Assembly (NCBI RefSeq): GCF_900187565.1
Contig: NZ_FYED01000006.1
Location: forward strand, 124,001-188,000
Reading direction: 5' to 3'
From: Pseudomonas sp. Irchel 3A7
GTDB taxonomy: Bacteria > Pseudomonadota > Gammaproteobacteria > Pseudomonadales > Pseudomonadaceae
DNA: 64,000 nucleotides
Part shown: positions 12,225-45,783 of the stretch, one piece after another
Layout of the letters: each line of letters starts with the position of its first letter
How positions within the stretch are numbered: the stretch's first letter is position 1
Translations under genes and position numbers: made by a program
The notes under the pieces: model-generated
Database searches by the model: none
What the model was told of the DNA's origin: nothing
What the model saw: only the letters and a program-made list of their open reading frames with translations

Positions 12225-12248
12225 TGTACAAAATAATAATTTGGTATA
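12225..12248 (+). promoter_or_regulatory. TGTACA-N12-GGTATA operator/promoter
   Basis: TGTACA at 12225 and a variant GGTATA at 12243 are spaced 18 bases apart. The second half and the bases after it (GGTATAGCTTTTAAGG) closely match TGTACAGCTTTTAAAGG at 18557 in the opposite promoter of the same functional cluster. It lies about 40 bases upstream of the chalcone-isomerase-like gene. Confidence 0.6.
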
Positions 12249-12288
12249 GCTTTTAAGGGCGTCTCTTGAGTCTTATCGAGGCCTTTGC

Positions 12289-12840
12289 ATGACCCCGCAG
12301 AAGGACCGCTTATTCCGCCACCTTATCTGTCTCGTTCCGATGCTCCTGAGCGCAGACCTGTTTGCTGATTGGCGCGAGGCTTTACCCGATGCTCGTCGGG
12401 TGGGTAGCGGGGAGCTGCGCGTATTCGGTTTCTCCATCTACAACGCGCAATTCTGGAGCCCACGCCTGATTGCCGGCGATCCGACCGGTGTGAATAGGCC
12501 TTTTGCGCTGGAGCTGACCTACCGCCGCGATATTAGTCGCGAGGATCTGGTCGAGGCCAGCATCAAGGAGATCAGACGCCTGTCGCCCACGCCTCCGAAT
12601 TCGGAGTTGATGGCCCGTTGGGAGCAGGAGATGCGGCAGGCGTTTGTCGATGTGCGCGCCGGTGATCGCATCACAGGCGTCTATTTGCCTGCTGAGGGCG
12701 CACGTTTTTACGTCGGCGAGAATCTACGGCATGTGGTGCGGGATGACGCGTTCGCCAAAGCTTTTTTTGCCATCTGGCTTGATCCCCGAACCCGCAACCC
12801 GCAGTTGCGCGCCCAATTGCTGGGCGCCGCAAAACCCTGA
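12289..12840 (+). CDS. Chalcone-isomerase-like secreted protein
   Basis: The product has 183 residues with a signal peptide (about 1-27, ending LFADWREA). The body matches the bacterial chalcone isomerase-like family: VGSGELRVFGFSIYNAQFW, LELTYRRDISREDLV and FFAIWLDPRTRNPQLRAQLLG. In bacteria these are not flavonoid enzymes; they bind fatty acids or have unknown roles. The gene precedes the DUF3833 lipoprotein and faces the Cfa cluster; both occur in light- or sigma-E-controlled fatty-acid loci. A TGTACA-type site lies upstream. Confidence 0.8.
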   Translation: MTPQKDRLFRHLICLVPMLLSADLFADWREALPDARRVGSGELRVFGFSIYNAQFWSPRLIAGDPTGVNRPFALELTYRRDISREDLVEASIKEIRRLSPTPPNSELMARWEQEMRQAFVDVRAGDRITGVYLPAEGARFYVGENLRHVVRDDAFAKAFFAIWLDPRTRNPQLRAQLLGAAKP

Positions 12841-12859
12841 AACCGTAGAGGAAATGCAC

Positions 12860-13384
12860 ATGTTGAGGATATGGATCTTGGCGTTGTGCATCAGCCTTGC
12901 AAGTTGCAGCCGGGTGGATGTGCAGACCTACAGCCAGGAAATGCCCAAGCTTGATTTGCGCGAATTCTTCGAGGGGCGGGTCGAAGCCTGGGGCATGTTT
13001 CAAAAGCGCTCAGGTGAGGTCACCAAACGCTTCCACGTAGAGATCAATGGCCATTCCGCCGGTAACCAGTTGATCCTCGACGAGTCATTTACATACAGCG
13101 ACGGTACTCAGCAAAAACGGGTGTGGACGCTGACCCCGGCCGGACCTGGCCAATGGCGTGGAACCGCTGGCGACGTGGTGGGCGAAGCGCATGGCGAGGT
13201 TGCAGGGAATACATTGCGCTGGCGCTATGTGCTGAGGTTGCCGGTGGATGGCAAGGAGTATGAGGTTCATTTAGACGACTGGATGTACTTGATGGACAAG
13301 AACACCATAATCAATCGCTCGTTCATGACCAAATTCGAAGTGGAAGTTGGCCAGATCACCTTATTCTTGCGCAAGCAGTCTTGA
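12860..13384 (+). CDS. DUF3833 lipoprotein
   Basis: I prefer the ATG at 12860 (174 residues), which sits eight bases after GAGG; the ATG at 12854 is too close to it. The N-terminus is a lipoprotein signal with the lipobox LASC (Cys at residue 15). The rest matches DUF3833, with YSQEMPKLDLREFFEGRVEAWG and a C-terminal DDWMYLMDKNTIINRSFM motif. The role is unknown but the family co-occurs with Cfa-like methyltransferase loci. It ends one base before the convergent DUF2878 gene. Confidence 0.85.
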   Translation: MLRIWILALCISLASCSRVDVQTYSQEMPKLDLREFFEGRVEAWGMFQKRSGEVTKRFHVEINGHSAGNQLILDESFTYSDGTQQKRVWTLTPAGPGQWRGTAGDVVGEAHGEVAGNTLRWRYVLRLPVDGKEYEVHLDDWMYLMDKNTIINRSFMTKFEVEVGQITLFLRKQS

Positions 13385-13385
13385 G

Positions 13386-13889
13386 TCAACGCGCAGACTC
13401 CAGGGCTATCCGGTGCAATGCCGGCATCAATAGCGCCCATATCAATGCGAGTATCAGGACACTGGGCCAAACACCCAGCGGCAGGCCCACGTCCGCTAAC
13501 CTGGCGCCGCCCCAGTAAGAGAGAGGCCCGCCAAACGCCCCCAGTAGGCTGCCCATCCACCAGGGGCGCTTTGTCCAGCTCAGGCTGTGACGCAAAGTAC
13601 TGGCGAAGAGAAGCCAAAGTATTGCCAGCCAAAGGGGTAAAACAAGCGTGGCACCGGGAAACTGAAATACCCCGAGGTGCAGTAGAGCGCTGTCCAGAAT
13701 CCAACCGCAGGCGGCCACCCATAACAGCAAGCGCCACTCATTGGGGGTCTTTGAAATCCAAAGCAGGTGTATCGCCAGACAAGTTATTGCAATCAGCAAT
13801 AGCCACGGCCGTTGCGCACCCAAAACGCAGGCGAACCAGCCGAGCTGGAAAAGCCCTGCGTTGAGCAACGACCGGCCTCGCACGTTCAC
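13386..13889 (-). CDS. DUF2878 membrane protein
   Basis: The 167-residue hydrophobic protein has about five membrane segments. It starts at a GTG at 13889 that overlaps the stop of the methyltransferase gene (GTGA). The sequence fits DUF2878 (NAGLFQLGWFACVLGA, GWILDSALLHLGVF, LPLWLAILWLLFASTL). It is the last gene of the minus-strand cluster. Its role is unknown; proximity suggests lipid modification in the inner membrane. Confidence 0.85.
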   Translation of the reverse strand: MNVRGRSLLNAGLFQLGWFACVLGAQRPWLLLIAITCLAIHLLWISKTPNEWRLLLWVAACGWILDSALLHLGVFQFPGATLVLPLWLAILWLLFASTLRHSLSWTKRPWWMGSLLGAFGGPLSYWGGARLADVGLPLGVWPSVLILALIWALLMPALHRIALESAR

Positions 13890-15151
13890 GCCTCCAGACC
13901 GAAGGGCTGCGGCCGTGCTCCGGGTTTGGCGAGTAAAAGGTGCGCGGTGCCGATGCTTCGTTCCAGAAAGCCGCCCTCGCAGTAGCACAGGTAAAACTCC
14001 CACAGGCGGTAAAACGTCTGGTCGTAACCCAACGCTTCCAGGTTGTGCCGGCTACGTCGCAGATTGTCATGCCACAGGCGAAGGGTACGGGCGTAATGAA
14101 GGCCGAAGTCCTCCATGTGATGAAGGTTCAGGTCGGTGTCGCGACTGATGGTGTGCAGCATGGAGCTCACCGAAGGCAAGGCACCGCCCGGGAAGATATA
14201 GCGCTGGATGAAGTCGACTGTTTTTTTCGTCTGCTCGTAGCGCTGGTCTCGAATGGTGATGGCTTGCAATAGCATAAGCCCGTGTTCCTTGAGCAGGTGG
14301 GCACACTGTTTGAAGTAAGTGGGCAGAAAGCGGTGGCCGACGGCCTCGATCATCTCGATCGACACCAGCTTGTCGTATTTGCCCGCCAGGTCACGATAGT
14401 CCTGCAACAGCAGGGTAACCCGGCCTTGCAGGCACTGCTCTTCGATACGGCGCTGGGTGTAGGCGAACTGCTCACGCGACAGCGTGGTGGTCGTGACCTT
14501 GCAGCCGTATCGGGTGGCCGCATAAATGGCCATGCTGCCCCAACCGGTGCCGATCTCCAGCAGGTGGTCACTGGGTTTGAGATCGAGCTTTTGGCAGATG
14601 CGCTCCAGCTTGTACATTTGAGCTTGTTGGAGGCTATCGTTGTTTGAGCGGAACATGGCGGCGGAGTACATCATGCTGGGGTCCAGCAGTTGTTCGAACA
14701 GCGCGTTGCCCAGATCGTAATGCGCACAAATGTTGCGTTGCGAGCCTTGGCGGGTGTTGCGGTTGAGCCAATGCAGCGCTTTTACCAAAGGACGGCTTAT
14801 ACGAGCCAGGCCGCGCTCCATTCCATCCAGCACTTCGAGGTTGGCAACGAACACGCGGATCACGGCGGTCAGATCGGGACTGCTCCAGTATCCGTGGATG
14901 TAAGCCTCGCCGGCGCCAATTGAGCCATTGACCGCCACCATGGGCCAGAGCGCCGCATTGTGCACTTCGATTTCGCCATGTGGCGTCGCACCAGGCTGGC
15001 CAAAACTCAGTGGCTCACCGTCGACGATGATTACCAAATGACCGTTGCGCAGGTGCGCCAGCTGACGCAAGACGCCTTTCTTCAATACGCGCGCGCCTAT
15101 CCCGTTGGCAGCAGAGCCAAAGGTCATTGGGGTCAAGCTAGGATTCGTCAT
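13886..15151 (-). CDS. Cfa-like SAM-dependent fatty-acyl methyltransferase
   Basis: I start it at the ATG at 15151 (421 residues), preceded by GGAG. It has an N-terminal lipid-binding part and a C-terminal methyltransferase with SAM loop LLEIGTGWGSMAIYAA (about 190-205), SIEMIEAVGHRF and the conserved HYDLGNALFEQLLD entry motif. It resembles cyclopropane-fatty-acid synthases and the UfaM-type enzymes that methylate phospholipid acyl chains on the way to furan fatty acids. The neighbouring FAD oxidase and SDR favour the second reading, but the product cannot be decided from sequence. Confidence 0.85.
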   Translation of the reverse strand: MTNPSLTPMTFGSAANGIGARVLKKGVLRQLAHLRNGHLVIIVDGEPLSFGQPGATPHGEIEVHNAALWPMVAVNGSIGAGEAYIHGYWSSPDLTAVIRVFVANLEVLDGMERGLARISRPLVKALHWLNRNTRQGSQRNICAHYDLGNALFEQLLDPSMMYSAAMFRSNNDSLQQAQMYKLERICQKLDLKPSDHLLEIGTGWGSMAIYAATRYGCKVTTTTLSREQFAYTQRRIEEQCLQGRVTLLLQDYRDLAGKYDKLVSIEMIEAVGHRFLPTYFKQCAHLLKEHGLMLLQAITIRDQRYEQTKKTVDFIQRYIFPGGALPSVSSMLHTISRDTDLNLHHMEDFGLHYARTLRLWHDNLRRSRHNLEALGYDQTFYRLWEFYLCYCEGGFLERSIGTAHLLLAKPGARPQPFGLEA

Positions 15152-15929
15152 GGCGAGACTCCAGATTCGCGGTGCGATATTCACCGACGGCAGCTTTATG
15201 GGAAAACAGTGGCAGACGCTTGAGCAGCAGACGCAGGGCTTGCGAGTAAATGCCGAGCAGGGTCTTGCCGGTCATCCAGGGAAAGTCCAGAAGGTGGCGA
15301 TGCAGGCTTTGGCGCGTCAGTTCGACACGCTCCAGACCCAGGCCCGCCTCAAATACTTTTTGCTCACCTTGCCAATCCTGCATGGTCACGTGCAGCGCCT
15401 GGCCGGGAGCTGAAAACCGCATGCGGTACTCCAGGTCTCGAGGCAGGAAGGGCGAGACGTGAAAGCTCTTGGCGACCCTGTGGCCTGAGTCACCGGTGGC
15501 GTTGGTCGGCAGCACATAGTGGTAACGCTCTCGCCAAGGGGTATTACTGACTTCGCAGAGAATGGCGGCCAGACTGCCGTCCGATTCAAAGCAATAAAAC
15601 AAGCTGATCGGATTGAAAGACAGCCCCCAGCTGCGCGGCTGGGTGAGCAGACAGATTCTTCCCTGCGGCGCGTGCCCGAGGGCCTGTTCCACACGCTGGC
15701 GCACGGCATCGATCAGGGACATGCCCTGACGCGTTGACTGCGGCAGGTAGTCAGTTTCGCGGAAGGCAAAGGCAGCCCAGCGCGAATGTCCGGCCAGCCA
15801 GGACAAGGCCAGCACCTGTTGTTGTTCCGCCAGATCCAGGTAGAGCATACCCATGCGGTAGCGAAACCCATGGGCGCGCGGCAGCAGCCGGCGGTGGTTG
15901 ACCCAGCCGCGGTACAGGGCGCTGTTCAC
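15138..15929 (-). CDS. DUF1365 protein
   Basis: The product has 263 residues starting at a GTG at 15929 that overlaps the oxidase stop (GTGA). DUF1365 features are clear: NSALYRGWVNHRRLLPRAHGFRYRMGMLYLDL at the start, LLTQPRSWGLSFNPISLFYCF in the middle, and KSFHVSPFLP. These proteins sit almost always between an FAD oxidoreductase and a Cfa-like methyltransferase, as here. Its biochemical role is unknown. Its end overlaps the methyltransferase gene by 14 bases. Confidence 0.88.
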   Translation of the reverse strand: MNSALYRGWVNHRRLLPRAHGFRYRMGMLYLDLAEQQQVLALSWLAGHSRWAAFAFRETDYLPQSTRQGMSLIDAVRQRVEQALGHAPQGRICLLTQPRSWGLSFNPISLFYCFESDGSLAAILCEVSNTPWRERYHYVLPTNATGDSGHRVAKSFHVSPFLPRDLEYRMRFSAPGQALHVTMQDWQGEQKVFEAGLGLERVELTRQSLHRHLLDFPWMTGKTLLGIYSQALRLLLKRLPLFSHKAAVGEYRTANLESRHDES

Positions 15930-17173
15930 AGTCGTTCTCCGAACGCGGCTGCCACTCGCAAGGCACTGACCACGCCGTCCTCGTGGAAACCGTTGGCCCA
16001 GTAGGCGCCGCAGTAATAGCTGTTCTGGGCGCCTTGTAATTCTTGCCATCGTGCCTGAGCAACCATTCCTGCCTGGCTGTATTGCGGGTGGGCGTAGCGG
16101 AAACGGTCGAGGATTTTGCTCGGGTCAATGGCCGCGGTCTGGTTCAGGCTGACGCAGAAGGTGGTGTTGCTCTGTAGCCCTTGCAGGATATTCATGTTGT
16201 AGGTGACAGCGGCCAGATGCTGGGCTGAGTCACCGAGGCGGTAATTCCAGCTCGCCCATGCTCGGCGACGGTTCGGCAACAGACGGGTATCGCTGTGCAG
16301 CACCACATCGTTTTCGGCGTAGTGCAGCGCGCCGAGTATCTCCCGTTCGGCTTGGCTGGGAGCGACCAACAGGCGTAATGCCTGGTCGCTGTGGCAGGCG
16401 AACACTACGTTGTCAAAGCGCTTGCTTCCTGTCGCACAGTGCAGGGTGACCCCACCTAAGTCACGCTCCACCCGATACACCGGGCAGTTGAGGCGGATAC
16501 GTTCGACAAAGCCGGCACTCAAGGCGGATACGTAGCTGCGCGAACCGCCGCTGACCACACGCCATTGTGGCCGATTGGCAAGGGACAGGAGCCCGTGATT
16601 TTTGCAGAAACGTACGAAAAACTGGAGCGGAAAGCGCTGCATCTCGCCCACTGACATCGACCAGATAGCCGACCCCATAGGGACTATGTAGTGTTCGATA
16701 AAACGTTGGCCGTAGCGGTTTTCCCGTAGATAGGCACCCAGCGTGGTCTCGGCAGTTATGCGCTGTTCGTCCAGGTCACGCAGGGCTTGGCTGTTGAAGC
16801 GCAAAATTTCACGCAACATGCCCCAGAATCCAGGTGAAAGCAGATTGCGCCGCTGGGCGAACACCTGGTTGAGGTTGCTGCCATTGTATTCAATGCCGGT
16901 ACGCGGATCCTGAACCGAAAAGCTCATCTCGGTGGGTTGCGAGGCTACGCCGAGTTGATCCAGCAGACGGATGAAGTTGGGATAGGTCCAGTCGTTGAAG
17001 ACGATGAAGCCAGTATCGATGGCATAGCGTTCGCCCTCTATTTCGACGTCAACCGTATGGCTATGACCACCGATCCAGTCACTGGCCTCGAATACAGTGA
17101 CGTCTTGCTGGCGGTGGAGCAGGTAGGCGCAGGTCAGGCCGGAAATACCGCTGCCGATGATGGCTGTTCTCAT
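15926..17173 (-). CDS. FAD-dependent amine-oxidase-like oxidoreductase
   Basis: This 415-residue protein opens with the dinucleotide-binding motif (AIIGSGISGLTCAYLL, about 4-19) and a second FAD contact (FEASDWIGGHSHTVDV). The body includes DTGFIVFNDWTYPNF and a C-terminal YYCGAYWANGFHEDGVVSALRVA that contacts FAD. Members beside cfa and DUF1365 are thought to act on membrane acyl chains. The ATG overlaps the SDR stop, so the cluster is translationally coupled. Confidence 0.88.
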   Translation of the reverse strand: MRTAIIGSGISGLTCAYLLHRQQDVTVFEASDWIGGHSHTVDVEIEGERYAIDTGFIVFNDWTYPNFIRLLDQLGVASQPTEMSFSVQDPRTGIEYNGSNLNQVFAQRRNLLSPGFWGMLREILRFNSQALRDLDEQRITAETTLGAYLRENRYGQRFIEHYIVPMGSAIWSMSVGEMQRFPLQFFVRFCKNHGLLSLANRPQWRVVSGGSRSYVSALSAGFVERIRLNCPVYRVERDLGGVTLHCATGSKRFDNVVFACHSDQALRLLVAPSQAEREILGALHYAENDVVLHSDTRLLPNRRRAWASWNYRLGDSAQHLAAVTYNMNILQGLQSNTTFCVSLNQTAAIDPSKILDRFRYAHPQYSQAGMVAQARWQELQGAQNSYYCGAYWANGFHEDGVVSALRVAAAFGERL

Positions 17174-17931
17174 GAAGATTCTTCTTTAACCGGACGCACC
17201 ATGCATTTGCCCAATGCCAGTTGCAGGCGCTGAGGCAATATGGCCAATGCGCGAAGAGCAGCAATGAATGAACCGGGAAAGGCGATTTCCAATGGCCGTT
17301 TTTCCAACCGGGTGGTGATGTAGGCGGCGGCTTTACCGACCGGCCAACGCATCGGCATCGGGAAATCGTTCTGTTGTGTGAGTGGCGTATCGACGAAGCC
17401 CGGGCTGACGAGCGTGACGTCGATACCCTCGTGTACCAGGTCGATGCGTAACGATTGAAACAGGTAACGCATTGCCGCCTTGGAGGCGCCATAAGCTTCG
17501 GCGCGCGGTAACGGCAGGTAGGTCACCGAACTGCACACTGCCACTAGATGAGGCCGCTGAGCCTTGCGCAACAGCGGTAGGGCAGCTTCCACGCAGTAAG
17601 CAGCGGAAAACAAATTGGCCCGCATCACGCGTTCAATCATGTTGGCTTCAAAGACGCCTGCATCCAAATACTCGCAGGTGCCCGCGTTGAGGATGACCTG
17701 ATCCAGATGACCCCAGACTTGCCCGATTCGCTGCCCCATGGCCTGAACCACGTCAGGCTCAGTCAGGTCACCTGGCAGAAGCAGTACTTGTTGCGGGTAG
17801 TTCCTGTGCAAGCTTTCCAAGGCCTTTACATTGCGGGCACTGACGGCCAGGAAATGACCTTGGGTCAGTAAAATATCCGCCAGGGCGGCGCCAATGCCGC
17901 TGCTGGCTCCAGTGAGCCAGATGCGTTTCAT
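17170..17931 (-). CDS. Short-chain dehydrogenase/reductase
   Basis: The product has 253 residues. It has the NAD(P)-binding GASSGIG motif (about residues 7-13), the NAG motif (LNAGT), and the catalytic Ser and YxxxK (CSSVTYL..YGASK). The start at 17931 overlaps the stop of the NTF2-like gene (ATGA). It belongs to the same coupled cluster and likely oxidises or reduces a lipid intermediate; the substrate is unknown. Confidence 0.88.
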   Translation of the reverse strand: MKRIWLTGASSGIGAALADILLTQGHFLAVSARNVKALESLHRNYPQQVLLLPGDLTEPDVVQAMGQRIGQVWGHLDQVILNAGTCEYLDAGVFEANMIERVMRANLFSAAYCVEAALPLLRKAQRPHLVAVCSSVTYLPLPRAEAYGASKAAMRYLFQSLRIDLVHEGIDVTLVSPGFVDTPLTQQNDFPMPMRWPVGKAAAYITTRLEKRPLEIAFPGSFIAALRALAILPQRLQLALGKCMVRPVKEESS

Positions 17932-18350
17932 GCCAACCTCCCTTTCAGCCAGCCAATGGCGGTCCCCATTAACGGCAGATGCTCGTAGAGCAGGGCGCCT
18001 GCATCGAAATAGTCGCGATGCTGATACACCTTCTCGTGCCATAGCAGATAAGAACAGCCAACAACCTCTATAAGTTGGCCACGGCGTAAACGGGGATGAC
18101 GGTAATGCAGGGTCCAGCGCAAATAGCCGGCACCTTCCTGCATCTGGTCATGGCCGTGAAACGTGAAGCCAAGTTCGCTGACGTTGGCATACAGCTCTGT
18201 GAAGTAGTCGTGTAACGCTGTCAGGCCTTGGATCTCATGGAGCGGATCACTGAAGCGCACATCGTGGCTGTACAGCGCCTTGAGCGTGTGCAGATTACCG
18301 GCGTTCAGCGTTCCGAAGTCTTGGGCGAAACATCGCAGGAAGTCAGACAC
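17928..18350 (-). CDS. NTF2-like (SnoaL-fold) protein
   Basis: The product has 140 residues and starts at a GTG (18350), with GGAG seven bases upstream. It has the NTF2-like pattern: FAQDFGTLNAGNLHTLKALYSHDVRFSDPLHEIQG near the start and a beta-rich second half. Proteins of this kind are the usual first gene of the SDR-FAD-DUF1365-Cfa cluster. They may bind a lipid or isoprenoid ligand. No catalytic residues can be assigned. Confidence 0.8.
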   Translation of the reverse strand: MSDFLRCFAQDFGTLNAGNLHTLKALYSHDVRFSDPLHEIQGLTALHDYFTELYANVSELGFTFHGHDQMQEGAGYLRWTLHYRHPRLRRGQLIEVVGCSYLLWHEKVYQHRDYFDAGALLYEHLPLMGTAIGWLKGRLA

Positions 18351-18513
18351 GTTGCGTCTCCATTGCCCGTCGGGCCTCGGGCAAATTCAAGGACCGTAAG
18401 GGGGGCGCGGCGACAACAGAGGCGGGTCGCGGATCACTCGCCAGGCGGGATGGATCAGTTCGCATGCAAGGGGCGCTGATCCTGGTCTTTCCGGTGTGCG
18501 CGCGATCGACCAT
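18343..18513 (-). CDS. Possible 56-residue leader ORF
   Basis: An open frame from the ATG at 18513 to the TGA at 18343-18345 lies between the TGTACA operator and the NTF2-like gene, overlapping the start of that gene by 8 bases. The product would be Pro/Arg-rich with no known motif. A purine-rich GGGGTAGAG precedes the ATG. It may be a coupling leader, a remnant of a lost upstream gene, or chance. Confidence 0.3.
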   Translation of the reverse strand: MVDRAHTGKTRISAPCMRTDPSRLASDPRPASVVAAPPLRSLNLPEARRAMETQRV

Positions 18514-18536
18514 GGAGCTCTACCCCTTCTCTTTAC

Positions 18537-18611
18537 TTGTACAATTTGATAACTCTTGTACAGCTTTTAAAGGATAGGGTGCGCACTGTACAAGTCAATT
18601 TTTTTGTACAA
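18537..18611. promoter_or_regulatory. Four TGTACA sites upstream of the fatty-acid cluster
   Basis: TGTACA occurs four times, at 18538, 18557, 18587 and 18605. Spacing within the two pairs is 19 and 18 bases, and three copies are extended to TTGTACA(A). They sit in the promoter region of the NTF2-SDR-FAD-DUF1365-Cfa-DUF2878 operon. The layout resembles MerR-type LitR/CarH operators, which control such clusters in light-responsive bacteria. The regulator gene is not in the window. Confidence 0.65.
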
Positions 18612-44877: not shown

Positions 44878-45783
44878 TCAGGTGAGGTTCTGCTCGGTCA
44901 GCCGCTGCACCACCAACCGCCGATAGTGCGACGGGGTCATGCCCTTGAGCTGCTGGAAGCGCCGGTTGAAATTGGAAATGTTGTTGAAGCCTGATTCGAA
45001 GCACACATCGGTCACCGGTTTGTCGCCATCGGCCAGCAGCTCGCAGGACTTGCTGATGCGCAGGCGATTGACGAACTCGATGAAGCAGCGTCCGGTGGCC
45101 TGTTTGAACACCCGGCTGAAGTACGTCGGCTTCATGCCCAGATGCTCGGCGACTTCCTCCAGCGTCAAGTCCCGGGCGTAGTGAGCGAAGATGTAATCCA
45201 CCGCCCGGTTGGTGCGGTCGATGTTGTGCTCGTCCGCCAGTTGCGGCGTGGTCGCGCCGGACAGCAACTGGTAATCGTCGCAGGCCGCGAGCACTTCCAG
45301 CAGTATGAAAAAGTGCCCGAGGCGGGTCATTCCTGTGGTATCGGCAATGCGCTGCATCAGCTCCATGGCTTTGCGAATCGTCTGCTTGCAGCGAAATTCG
45401 ATGCCGTACTGCGCACGCTCCAGCAACGGCGCGAGGGTCTTGAGCTCGGCGAACACCTGATAGCCGCTGTCGAACAACTCGTCGGTGAAATTGACCAACA
45501 TGTCGCGCTTGGCCACCACCTCGTCTTCGGCGACCTGGCTGATCCAGTTGTGGGGCAGGTTGGGGCCGGTGAGGAACAGGGTTTCAGGGTAGAAATTACC
45601 GATGTAGTCGCCGATGAATACCTTGCCGGAGCTGGCGACGATCAGGTGCAGTTCGTATTCCTTGTGGAAATGCCAGCGCACCAGGGGGCAGGGGAAGCCA
45701 TGCTGGCGATAGATGATGGACAACCCGTTGTGGTCGTCCATCAGCTCATAGGAAGGGTCGGTCACTTTGGCAGTGCGGTTCAT
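44878..45783 (-). CDS. mtlR: AraC-family mannitol regulator MtlR
   Basis: The product has 301 residues. An N-terminal cupin-like effector domain (about 10-150; HFHKEYELHLIVASSGKVFIGDYIG) is followed by two helix-turn-helix motifs (about 190-290), with DLTLEEVAEHLGMKPTYFSRVFKQATG and the FESGFNNISNFNRRFQQLKGMTPSHYRR signature. It lies just upstream of mtlE, as known for P. fluorescens MtlR, the polyol-dependent activator of the operon. Confidence 0.92.
   Translation of the reverse strand: MNRTAKVTDPSYELMDDHNGLSIIYRQHGFPCPLVRWHFHKEYELHLIVASSGKVFIGDYIGNFYPETLFLTGPNLPHNWISQVAEDEVVAKRDMLVNFTDELFDSGYQVFAELKTLAPLLERAQYGIEFRCKQTIRKAMELMQRIADTTGMTRLGHFFILLEVLAACDDYQLLSGATTPQLADEHNIDRTNRAVDYIFAHYARDLTLEEVAEHLGMKPTYFSRVFKQATGRCFIEFVNRLRISKSCELLADGDKPVTDVCFESGFNNISNFNRRFQQLKGMTPSHYRRLVVQRLTEQNLT

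Follow-up and report, generated by a model that had tools for sequence, protein, structure and literature searches.

Predicted blue-light operators at a stand-alone, probable furan fatty acid operon and a facing chal–DUF3833 operon in Pseudomonas sp. Irchel 3A7

Two converging operons and their TGTACA operators

Within a stretch of 64,000 nucleotides from Pseudomonas sp. Irchel 3A7 (contig NZ_FYED01000006.1, positions 124,001 to 188,000; this whole stretch is the window, on the contig numbered C18 here), two operons converge at about position 13385, and three operator sites built on the motif TGTACA occupy their outer ends. On the + strand lie chal, for a chalcone-isomerase-like protein, and a DUF3833 gene; on the − strand a run of six genes from 18350 down to 13386 forms what we call the ufa operon, a probable furan fatty acid operon. 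An initial annotation had described this region as the two facing promoters of a split fatty-acid cluster. The promoters do face each other and the two-ended arrangement holds, while the word 'split' does not: a complete stand-alone ufa operon faces chal–DUF3833, and the copy usual in the genus has been deleted from its own place elsewhere in the genome.

In order of transcription, the ufa operon encodes an NTF2/SnoaL-like protein (17928..18350; first annotated gene, GTG start), a short-chain dehydrogenase (SDR; 17170..17931), a flavin adenine dinucleotide (FAD) amine-oxidase-like protein (15926..17173), a DUF1365 protein (15138..15932), a Cfa-like S-adenosylmethionine methyltransferase (13886..15151) and, as its last gene, a DUF2878 protein (13386..13913; start codon uncertain). 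The overlaps between neighbouring genes range from a few bases to some tens of bases. A domain search agreed with the names first given to the cluster genes. At domain level, Amino_oxidase and DUF1365 stand above cut-off in the window proteins, and the Cfa-like protein belongs to the CMAS family, below the NCBIfam Cfa cut-offs (best 287 vs 400 bits), no UfaM-specific model being listed. The set resembles UfaM–UfaD–UfaO of Rhodobacter sphaeroides and Rhodopseudomonas palustris, which comprises a Cfa-like methyltransferase (UfaM), an oxidoreductase acting as desaturase (UfaD) and a DUF1365 protein (UfaO), and whose furan acid product protects from singlet oxygen (PMC7380195; this and the other papers are cited from excerpts, to which statements about them are limited). 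The Cfa-like and DUF1365 proteins are thus probably UfaM and UfaO, and the FAD protein, from its domain and gene context, probably UfaD. Unlike here, ChrR is involved in control in R. sphaeroides, the operon genes RSP1087–1089 are dispensable, and the excerpts give no role there to NTF2, SDR, DUF2878, chal or DUF3833 (PMC7380195). Relatives of the Ufa enzymes have also been reported in plants (PMC10940516).

The facing operon consists of chal (12289..12840; Chalcone_3 domain, apparent signal peptide by eye) and the DUF3833 gene (12860..13384), whose product has a lipobox-like LASC by eye. The model of the chal product (predicted local distance difference test, pLDDT, 84) has a chalcone-isomerase fold, common to plant chalcone isomerases and the fatty-acid-binding AtFAP1; Arabidopsis FAP1 and FAP3 are among its matches (11 and 14% identity). 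For the DUF3833 product (pLDDT 90.8) the model shows a β-barrel of ten strands; its matches, to BFA1, a CpeS lyase, Ycf58 and nitrophorins, are weak, and it may be called calycin-like. A link of chal and DUF3833 to the furan pathway comes from 11 loci, mostly of betaproteobacteria (Deefgea, Iodobacter and others), where both genes form a single run with FAD, DUF1365 and cfa genes; no TGTACA pairs were found in these loci at the scan threshold. A literature search for DUF3833 or chalcone isomerase-like proteins together with operon or Cfa named neither among the matches listed.

Read on the − strand, the ufa promoter begins with site 1 (18587..18610), an exact TGTACA-N12-TGTACA pair with a −35 element, TTGACT (18593–18598), between its halves. 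After 16 bases follows a predicted −10 element, TATCCT (18571..18576), and then, just downstream of the inferred start point, site 2 (18538..18562), an exact pair with N13. The four TGTACA copies start at 18538, 18557, 18587 and 18605, with start-to-start distances of 19 and 18. The chal promoter (+ strand) has a single site, TGTACA-N12-GGTATA (12225..12248), whose right half may double as an extended −10 element (TG-G-TATAGC, 12245–12250); across the aligned chal loci, TATA(A/G) together with the base after it would form such an element. All these sites had been listed initially and were found again; the 17 bases then said to match between the chal site and the copy at 18557 are alike without being identical (14/17).

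Clustering of a simple AT-rich palindrome by chance has the simplicity of the motif in its favour and nothing further, and the controls make it a negligible explanation. The window holds 15 copies of TGTACA against 5.7 expected; none of 100 shuffles reached 15 (maximum 12), and the four copies in the 121-bp stretch around 18538–18610 were reached in 0 of 20,000 first-order resamples. A scan of the whole genome (6.52 Mb, 29 contigs) found TGTACA-N11-14-TGTACA at 3 places and its control pattern at none, with a composition-only expectation of about 0.3 N12 or N13 pairs per genome. Two of the three places are the window sites; the third (C24:79006) lies within a 516-codon open frame, porin-like by eye, and was dropped as a regulon member, and its 24 bases, or their complement, recur in three other genomes (G034, G047 and G138). 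A count over 149 genomes of the genus, with the present one among them, found 392 forward matches to TGTACA-N12/13-TGTACA, spread over 145 of the genomes, and 18 to the reversed control. With the looser pattern TRTACA-N11-13-KGTAYA, 6 places were found in the genome: three in the window, two on contig C13 and one inside a long coding frame. The non-coding sites that it detects belong to the two window operons and to a locus on C13 that carries genes for a LitR protein and a photolyase.

Regulator genes and the known light switch

The initial annotation placed a LitR-type regulator at a distance, and such genes exist: there are 9 MerR_1 matches in the genome, none on C18. Two of the nine, with frames of about 385 codons, were taken through a domain scan, and both are LitR-like. 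On C13, genes for RudS (2-thiouracil desulfurase and DUF1722 domains), LitR1, a photolyase (phr) and SDR2 (59% identical to the window SDR) all run leftward, preceded by TGTACA-N12-TGTATA, so the same type of operator stands on the operon of LitR1 itself. This site, at 45103, also falls inside a mechanical 81-codon frame, and was treated as intergenic because it lies upstream of RudS–LitR1–phr. It is identical to window site 1 at 23 of 24 bases. A duplicated promoter was rejected as the source of this identity: flanking sequence aligns poorly and both sites fit the genus consensus, which suffices to explain the likeness. Also on C13, a TGTACA-N12-GGTATA site (L016:10264-10287) lies between genes that appear by eye to be renalase-like (FAD) and TIGR01777-like, with a hemH-like gene next. 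In 12 loci compared, this gap keeps TGTACA in all and GGTATA in 10, and the two genes are candidates for further light control.

On contig C9 the order is a short LOV gene, a gene without a Pfam match, LitR2, an ABM-domain gene and, by eye, a folM-like SDR. LitR1 has MerR_1 and B12-binding_2 domains and matches CarH, and LitR2 has MerR_1 only. As neither has a match to the B12-binding domain, they fall outside class I (LitR/CarH) and within class II (a MerR helix-turn-helix and at most B12-binding_2); the B12-sensing LitR first envisaged, a MerR protein with a B12-binding domain, was given up on the scan of these two genes. The short LOV protein has 158 amino acids, a PAS_9 domain and DCRFLQ in its translation, in keeping with its class, in which a LOV domain with an adduct-forming cysteine stands without an effector domain. 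Its best PDB chains are 7yx0, 7r5n and 7a6p ('sensory box' type), and its matches include 3sw1, which we take to be PpSB1-LOV. The gene between the short LOV gene and LitR2 (L017:7387-8046) encodes a 219-amino-acid protein, with a 93% identical counterpart at the same place in genome G002; it is possibly a third component of the switch.

On this make-up of genes and domains, the putative switch corresponds to the PplR/PmlR–SB-LOV system already published for Pseudomonas. In P. putida KT2440, with PplR1–3 and PpSB1-2-LOV, Sumi et al. in 2020 reportedly derived the consensus T(G/A)TACA-N12-TGTA(C/T)A, and the regulon is said to include pplR1, phrB, ufaM, folE and cryB. Window site 1 matches this strict consensus exactly. 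Unlike that strain with its three LitR and two LOV proteins, the present genome has two LitR genes among the 9 MerR_1 matches and one short LOV match at E 1e-30, on C9.

The closest comparison is with P. mendocina. There, PmlR2 protects two TGTACA-N12-TGTACA sites, one over the −35 element and one between start point and start codon, and represses in vitro; once illuminated, the LOV protein attaches to PmlR2 and hinders its binding to DNA, and ufaM is up 25–33-fold in light (PMC9758184). The ufa promoter has the same double design, with its start point predicted: as in the P. mendocina promoter P6650 (TTGACT-N16-TATGAT), site 1 covers a −35 TTGACT followed by N16, and site 2 precedes the start codon. 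Both species also share a class II LitR gene near a short LOV gene, ufaM within the (here predicted) regulon, and a TGTACA-N12-GGTATA site, which in P. mendocina lies in the folM promoter region; PmlR2 shifts that region in gels, and the excerpts give no footprint there (PMC9758184). The differences are that ufaM of P. mendocina belongs to a nine-gene pmlR1 operon, whereas here ufa stands alone with one N13 site, and that chal–DUF3833 forms a second arm with a GGTATA-type site. Class II proteins are described as working through a short LOV protein and, on the strength of P. putida work, without B12 (PMC9758184). A second source, which places RudS in the same operon, contradicts this by calling class II LitR B12-dependent (PMC11417400).

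The ufa promoter design is conserved. In 75 further ufa loci of the genus, a double operator was found in 71, with a spacing of 49–52 in 70 of the 71 and of exactly 50 in 39. The script allowed up to three mismatches in the second site, searched 44–57 bases away, so chance may account for single weak second sites, but it is an unlikely source of the peak at exactly 50. The consensus of site 1 is T(G/A)TACAAAnnATTTGACTTGTACA (63 N12 sequences), with the −35 TTGACT inside. For the chal operator, alignment of 12 loci shows a variable spacer flanked by constant halves: TGTACA in 11 (TATACA in the other), N12 and GTATA in all 12, and GGTATA in 8, with CTTTTAA behind the right half in 7. A called site adjoins chal in 6 of 9 close Pseudomonas loci (L049–L057).

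Relocation of the ufa operon and loss of the usual copy

Across the genus, the NTF2 gene, used to locate the ufa operon, was found in 105 of the 149 genomes, at 106 places, and no match was found in the other 44. Three addresses can be distinguished. At 83 of the 106 places the gene lies behind pplR1–phr (28 of 30 loci, 54 of the 75 further loci and a second copy in genome G046); two of these are truncated (L260 and L261). In 12 of the 75 it lies directly behind the short LOV gene. The remaining 11 are stand-alone: the window, where the address is opposite chal–DUF3833, G046, and nine of the 75 whose upstream neighbour is distant or outside the query gene set. In all nine, a TGTACA pair with no more than one mismatch begins 119 bases or less from the NTF2 match, and the window pairs start 188 and 237 bases before the gene.

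In each of ten relatives found through chal, NTF2 has a single match and LitR two or three. In P. migulae, P. brassicacearum 38D7, P. reinekei and sp. AL03 the ufa operon lies behind phr. In P. umsongensis, sp. REP124 (where DUF3833 is missing from the locus, L053), P. endophytica, sp. 7P_10.2 and P. helleri it faces chal, and of the query genes only the SDR is found behind phr in the stretch examined. In UBA4617 it lies behind the LOV gene and faces DUF3833–chal. Furthermore, in L225, L232, L235, L244, L246, L252 and L258 a DUF3833 gene lies on the far side of the ufa operon and faces it; as these include stand-alone and LOV-linked loci, the facing layout is wider than the species group of the window.

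The usual address in this strain carries a deletion scar. On C13, behind the end of the photolyase gene, comes ATGAGT, with which the NTF2 gene of the pplR1-linked copy opens; within about ten bases come roughly the last 35 bases of NTF2 and then the intact SDR2 frame. Beyond SDR2, C13 is again colinear with G046 (83% identical), after a gap; the corresponding stretch of G046 measures about 3.8 kb and holds its FAD, DUF1365, cfa and DUF2878 genes. The scar and the resumed colinearity indicate that the copy behind pplR1–phr was removed by deletions. Two genomes are intermediates of this replacement. In G046 the phr-linked copy is complete, and a second, stand-alone copy lacks cfa and has a FAD gene broken into two pieces. 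In AL03 the phr-linked copy is likewise complete, and next to chal–DUF3833 lie fragments of DUF2878, cfa and DUF1365. In two other species (L261 in G136 and L260 in G085), the truncated NTF2 behind phr is without the FAD-to-DUF2878 genes in the stretch examined, which suggests repeated loss at this address.

A midpoint-rooted tree of four concatenated proteins was built from 84 loci (57 phr-linked, 13 LOV-linked, 9 other stand-alone and 5 of the window type), omitting L055, L260 and L261 with incomplete proteins; L180 and L192 are the same region of AL03. The five window-type copies form one clade (support 1.0) within an otherwise phr-linked group (0.98), well separated from the phr-linked copies that G046 and AL03 carry. 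This placement marks the window copy as an old divergent lineage and not a recent local duplicate, which is compatible both with transfer and with differential loss.

Upstream of the NTF2 gene, a leader open reading frame (ORF) of 56 codons (18343..18513, − strand) has a TGA stop codon overlapping the start of NTF2. The frame is kept at the same length in G046, with 24 of 56 residues identical. The differences are spread evenly over codon positions (23, 19 and 21), unlike those of NTF2 (13, 6 and 45), so there is no evidence for a selected leader peptide, and the ORF was dropped as a coding gene. It may provide translational coupling in place of the photolyase end of the usual operon. Upstream ORFs of 4 to 41 codons ending at the NTF2-start overlap are found in L052, L053, L055, L056 and L057.

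Weighing the readings and their meaning

Our preferred reading is that both promoters carry operators of the Pseudomonas class II LitR/short-LOV blue-light switch, the relocated ufa copy included, with a probability of about 0.83. Several results weigh against it. On the motif side, the looser pattern that finds the 12225 site gave 0 forward and 3 reverse matches in its control; a one-mismatch scan of the genome showed no enrichment and adds nothing (6 places against 5 for its control), and three pairs from it (C7:20342, C18:142269 and C26:87823) lie inside open frames and were dropped as regulon members. The N13 spacer of site 2 departs from the published N12. The GGTATA half at 12225 is outside the strict PplR1 consensus, with folM and its gel shift of the promoter region as the single parallel in the excerpts (PMC9758184). 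No double operator was found at L211, L232, L246 and L261 in the 75-locus scan; L211 had been scanned in the wrong orientation, and two exact pairs stand 53 bases apart there. Among 25 other chal loci (L058–L082), a called site was found only in L075. On the regulator side, LitR2 has no B12-binding_2 match, unlike PmlR2; P. putida uses two short LOV proteins, and none beyond that on C9 was found in the genome at E 1e-30; and no operator with fewer than two mismatches was found in 18 kb of C9 around LitR2–LOV–folM.

Other explanations give the sites or the proteins different parts. LitR may bind at these promoters with the arms wired differently, LitR1 and LitR2 dividing the sites or one of them activating. 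This partly overlaps the preferred reading and draws on the two divergent LitR genes, the two classes of site (double with an embedded −35, and single TGTACA-N12-GGTATA) and the N13 variant; with the simple repression by PmlR2 in P. mendocina (PMC9758184) as the guide, we consider it unlikely. Slightly less probable again is that light control extends to the ufa operon only, the chal site being a relic or a chance partial match. Two departures from TGTACA in its right half and the lack of a called site directly upstream of chal in 3 of the 9 close relatives (L054, L056 and L057) would fit such a relic. Against it, the 12-locus alignment, with those three included, keeps both halves and N12 despite the variable spacer, the site is kept even where chal–DUF3833 is apart from the ufa genes (L050, L051 and L054), and GGTATA recurs in the gap between the renalase-like and TIGR01777-like genes.

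The initial annotation had also named singlet oxygen, sensed through sigma-E/ChrR, as an alternative to light; the cluster would then answer, as in Rhodobacter, to an extracytoplasmic sigma factor, and TGTACA would be incidental. Furan acid levels do rise in an R. sphaeroides chrR mutant, and UfaM is inducible by singlet oxygen (PMC7380195). In the present genome, however, a search for the ChrR family (TIGR02451) gave 0 matches while its control detected ChrR in Caulobacter, and the ufa promoter has sigma-70-like −35 and −10 boxes with conserved operators. Control by sigma-E/ChrR was thus rejected as very improbable, and the light alternative, with its regulator genes and operators, was the part that stood.

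To the observed sequences, gene content, operator conservation and deletion scar, the preferred light-switch reading adds repression, release by light and chemistry as the published relatives lead us to expect them. In the dark, LitR of the PplR1/PmlR2 type, from the C13 and C9 genes, would sit on site 1, over the −35 element, and on site 2, and would exclude RNA polymerase from the ufa operon; it would also occupy the 12225 site, probably overlapping the extended −10, and keep chal–DUF3833 silent. In blue light, the short LOV protein of C9 would form a flavin–cysteine adduct, bind the helix-turn-helix of LitR and strip it off the DNA. UfaM, UfaD and UfaO would then be made alongside the photolyase and RudS of the C13 operon and convert vaccenoyl chains to furan fatty acids, which scavenge singlet oxygen. 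For the chal and DUF3833 proteins we propose, speculatively, that they bind the modified acyl chains or transport them within the envelope; the window ufa operon would be the divergent stand-alone copy that survived deletion of the one behind pplR1–phr.

A bolder and more doubtful extension, which we offer tentatively, treats the ufa operon as a portable light unit with three addresses, each with its own LitR operator, whose copies displace one another down to one working set. The chal–DUF3833 operon would then be a separately switched envelope arm, in which a lipocalin-like lipoprotein and a chalcone-isomerase-fold protein bind or ferry furan acyl chains and one half-site of a second operator class acts as an extended −10.

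The LitR/LOV switch itself is already known. Three elements were not met in the literature searched and appear new, although part may be in print: the move of the ufa operon to another address under a retained operator, the intermediate genomes, and the chal–DUF3833 arm with its predicted separate control; a search combining furan fatty acid, Pseudomonas and blue light found nothing. With these results, a regulator that had been inferred becomes a set of identified genes with testable sites. A lipid pathway for protection in light would retain its light operator while moving its place in the chromosome, and two conserved proteins, chal and DUF3833, join the likely light regulon as candidates for the handling of furan fatty acids.

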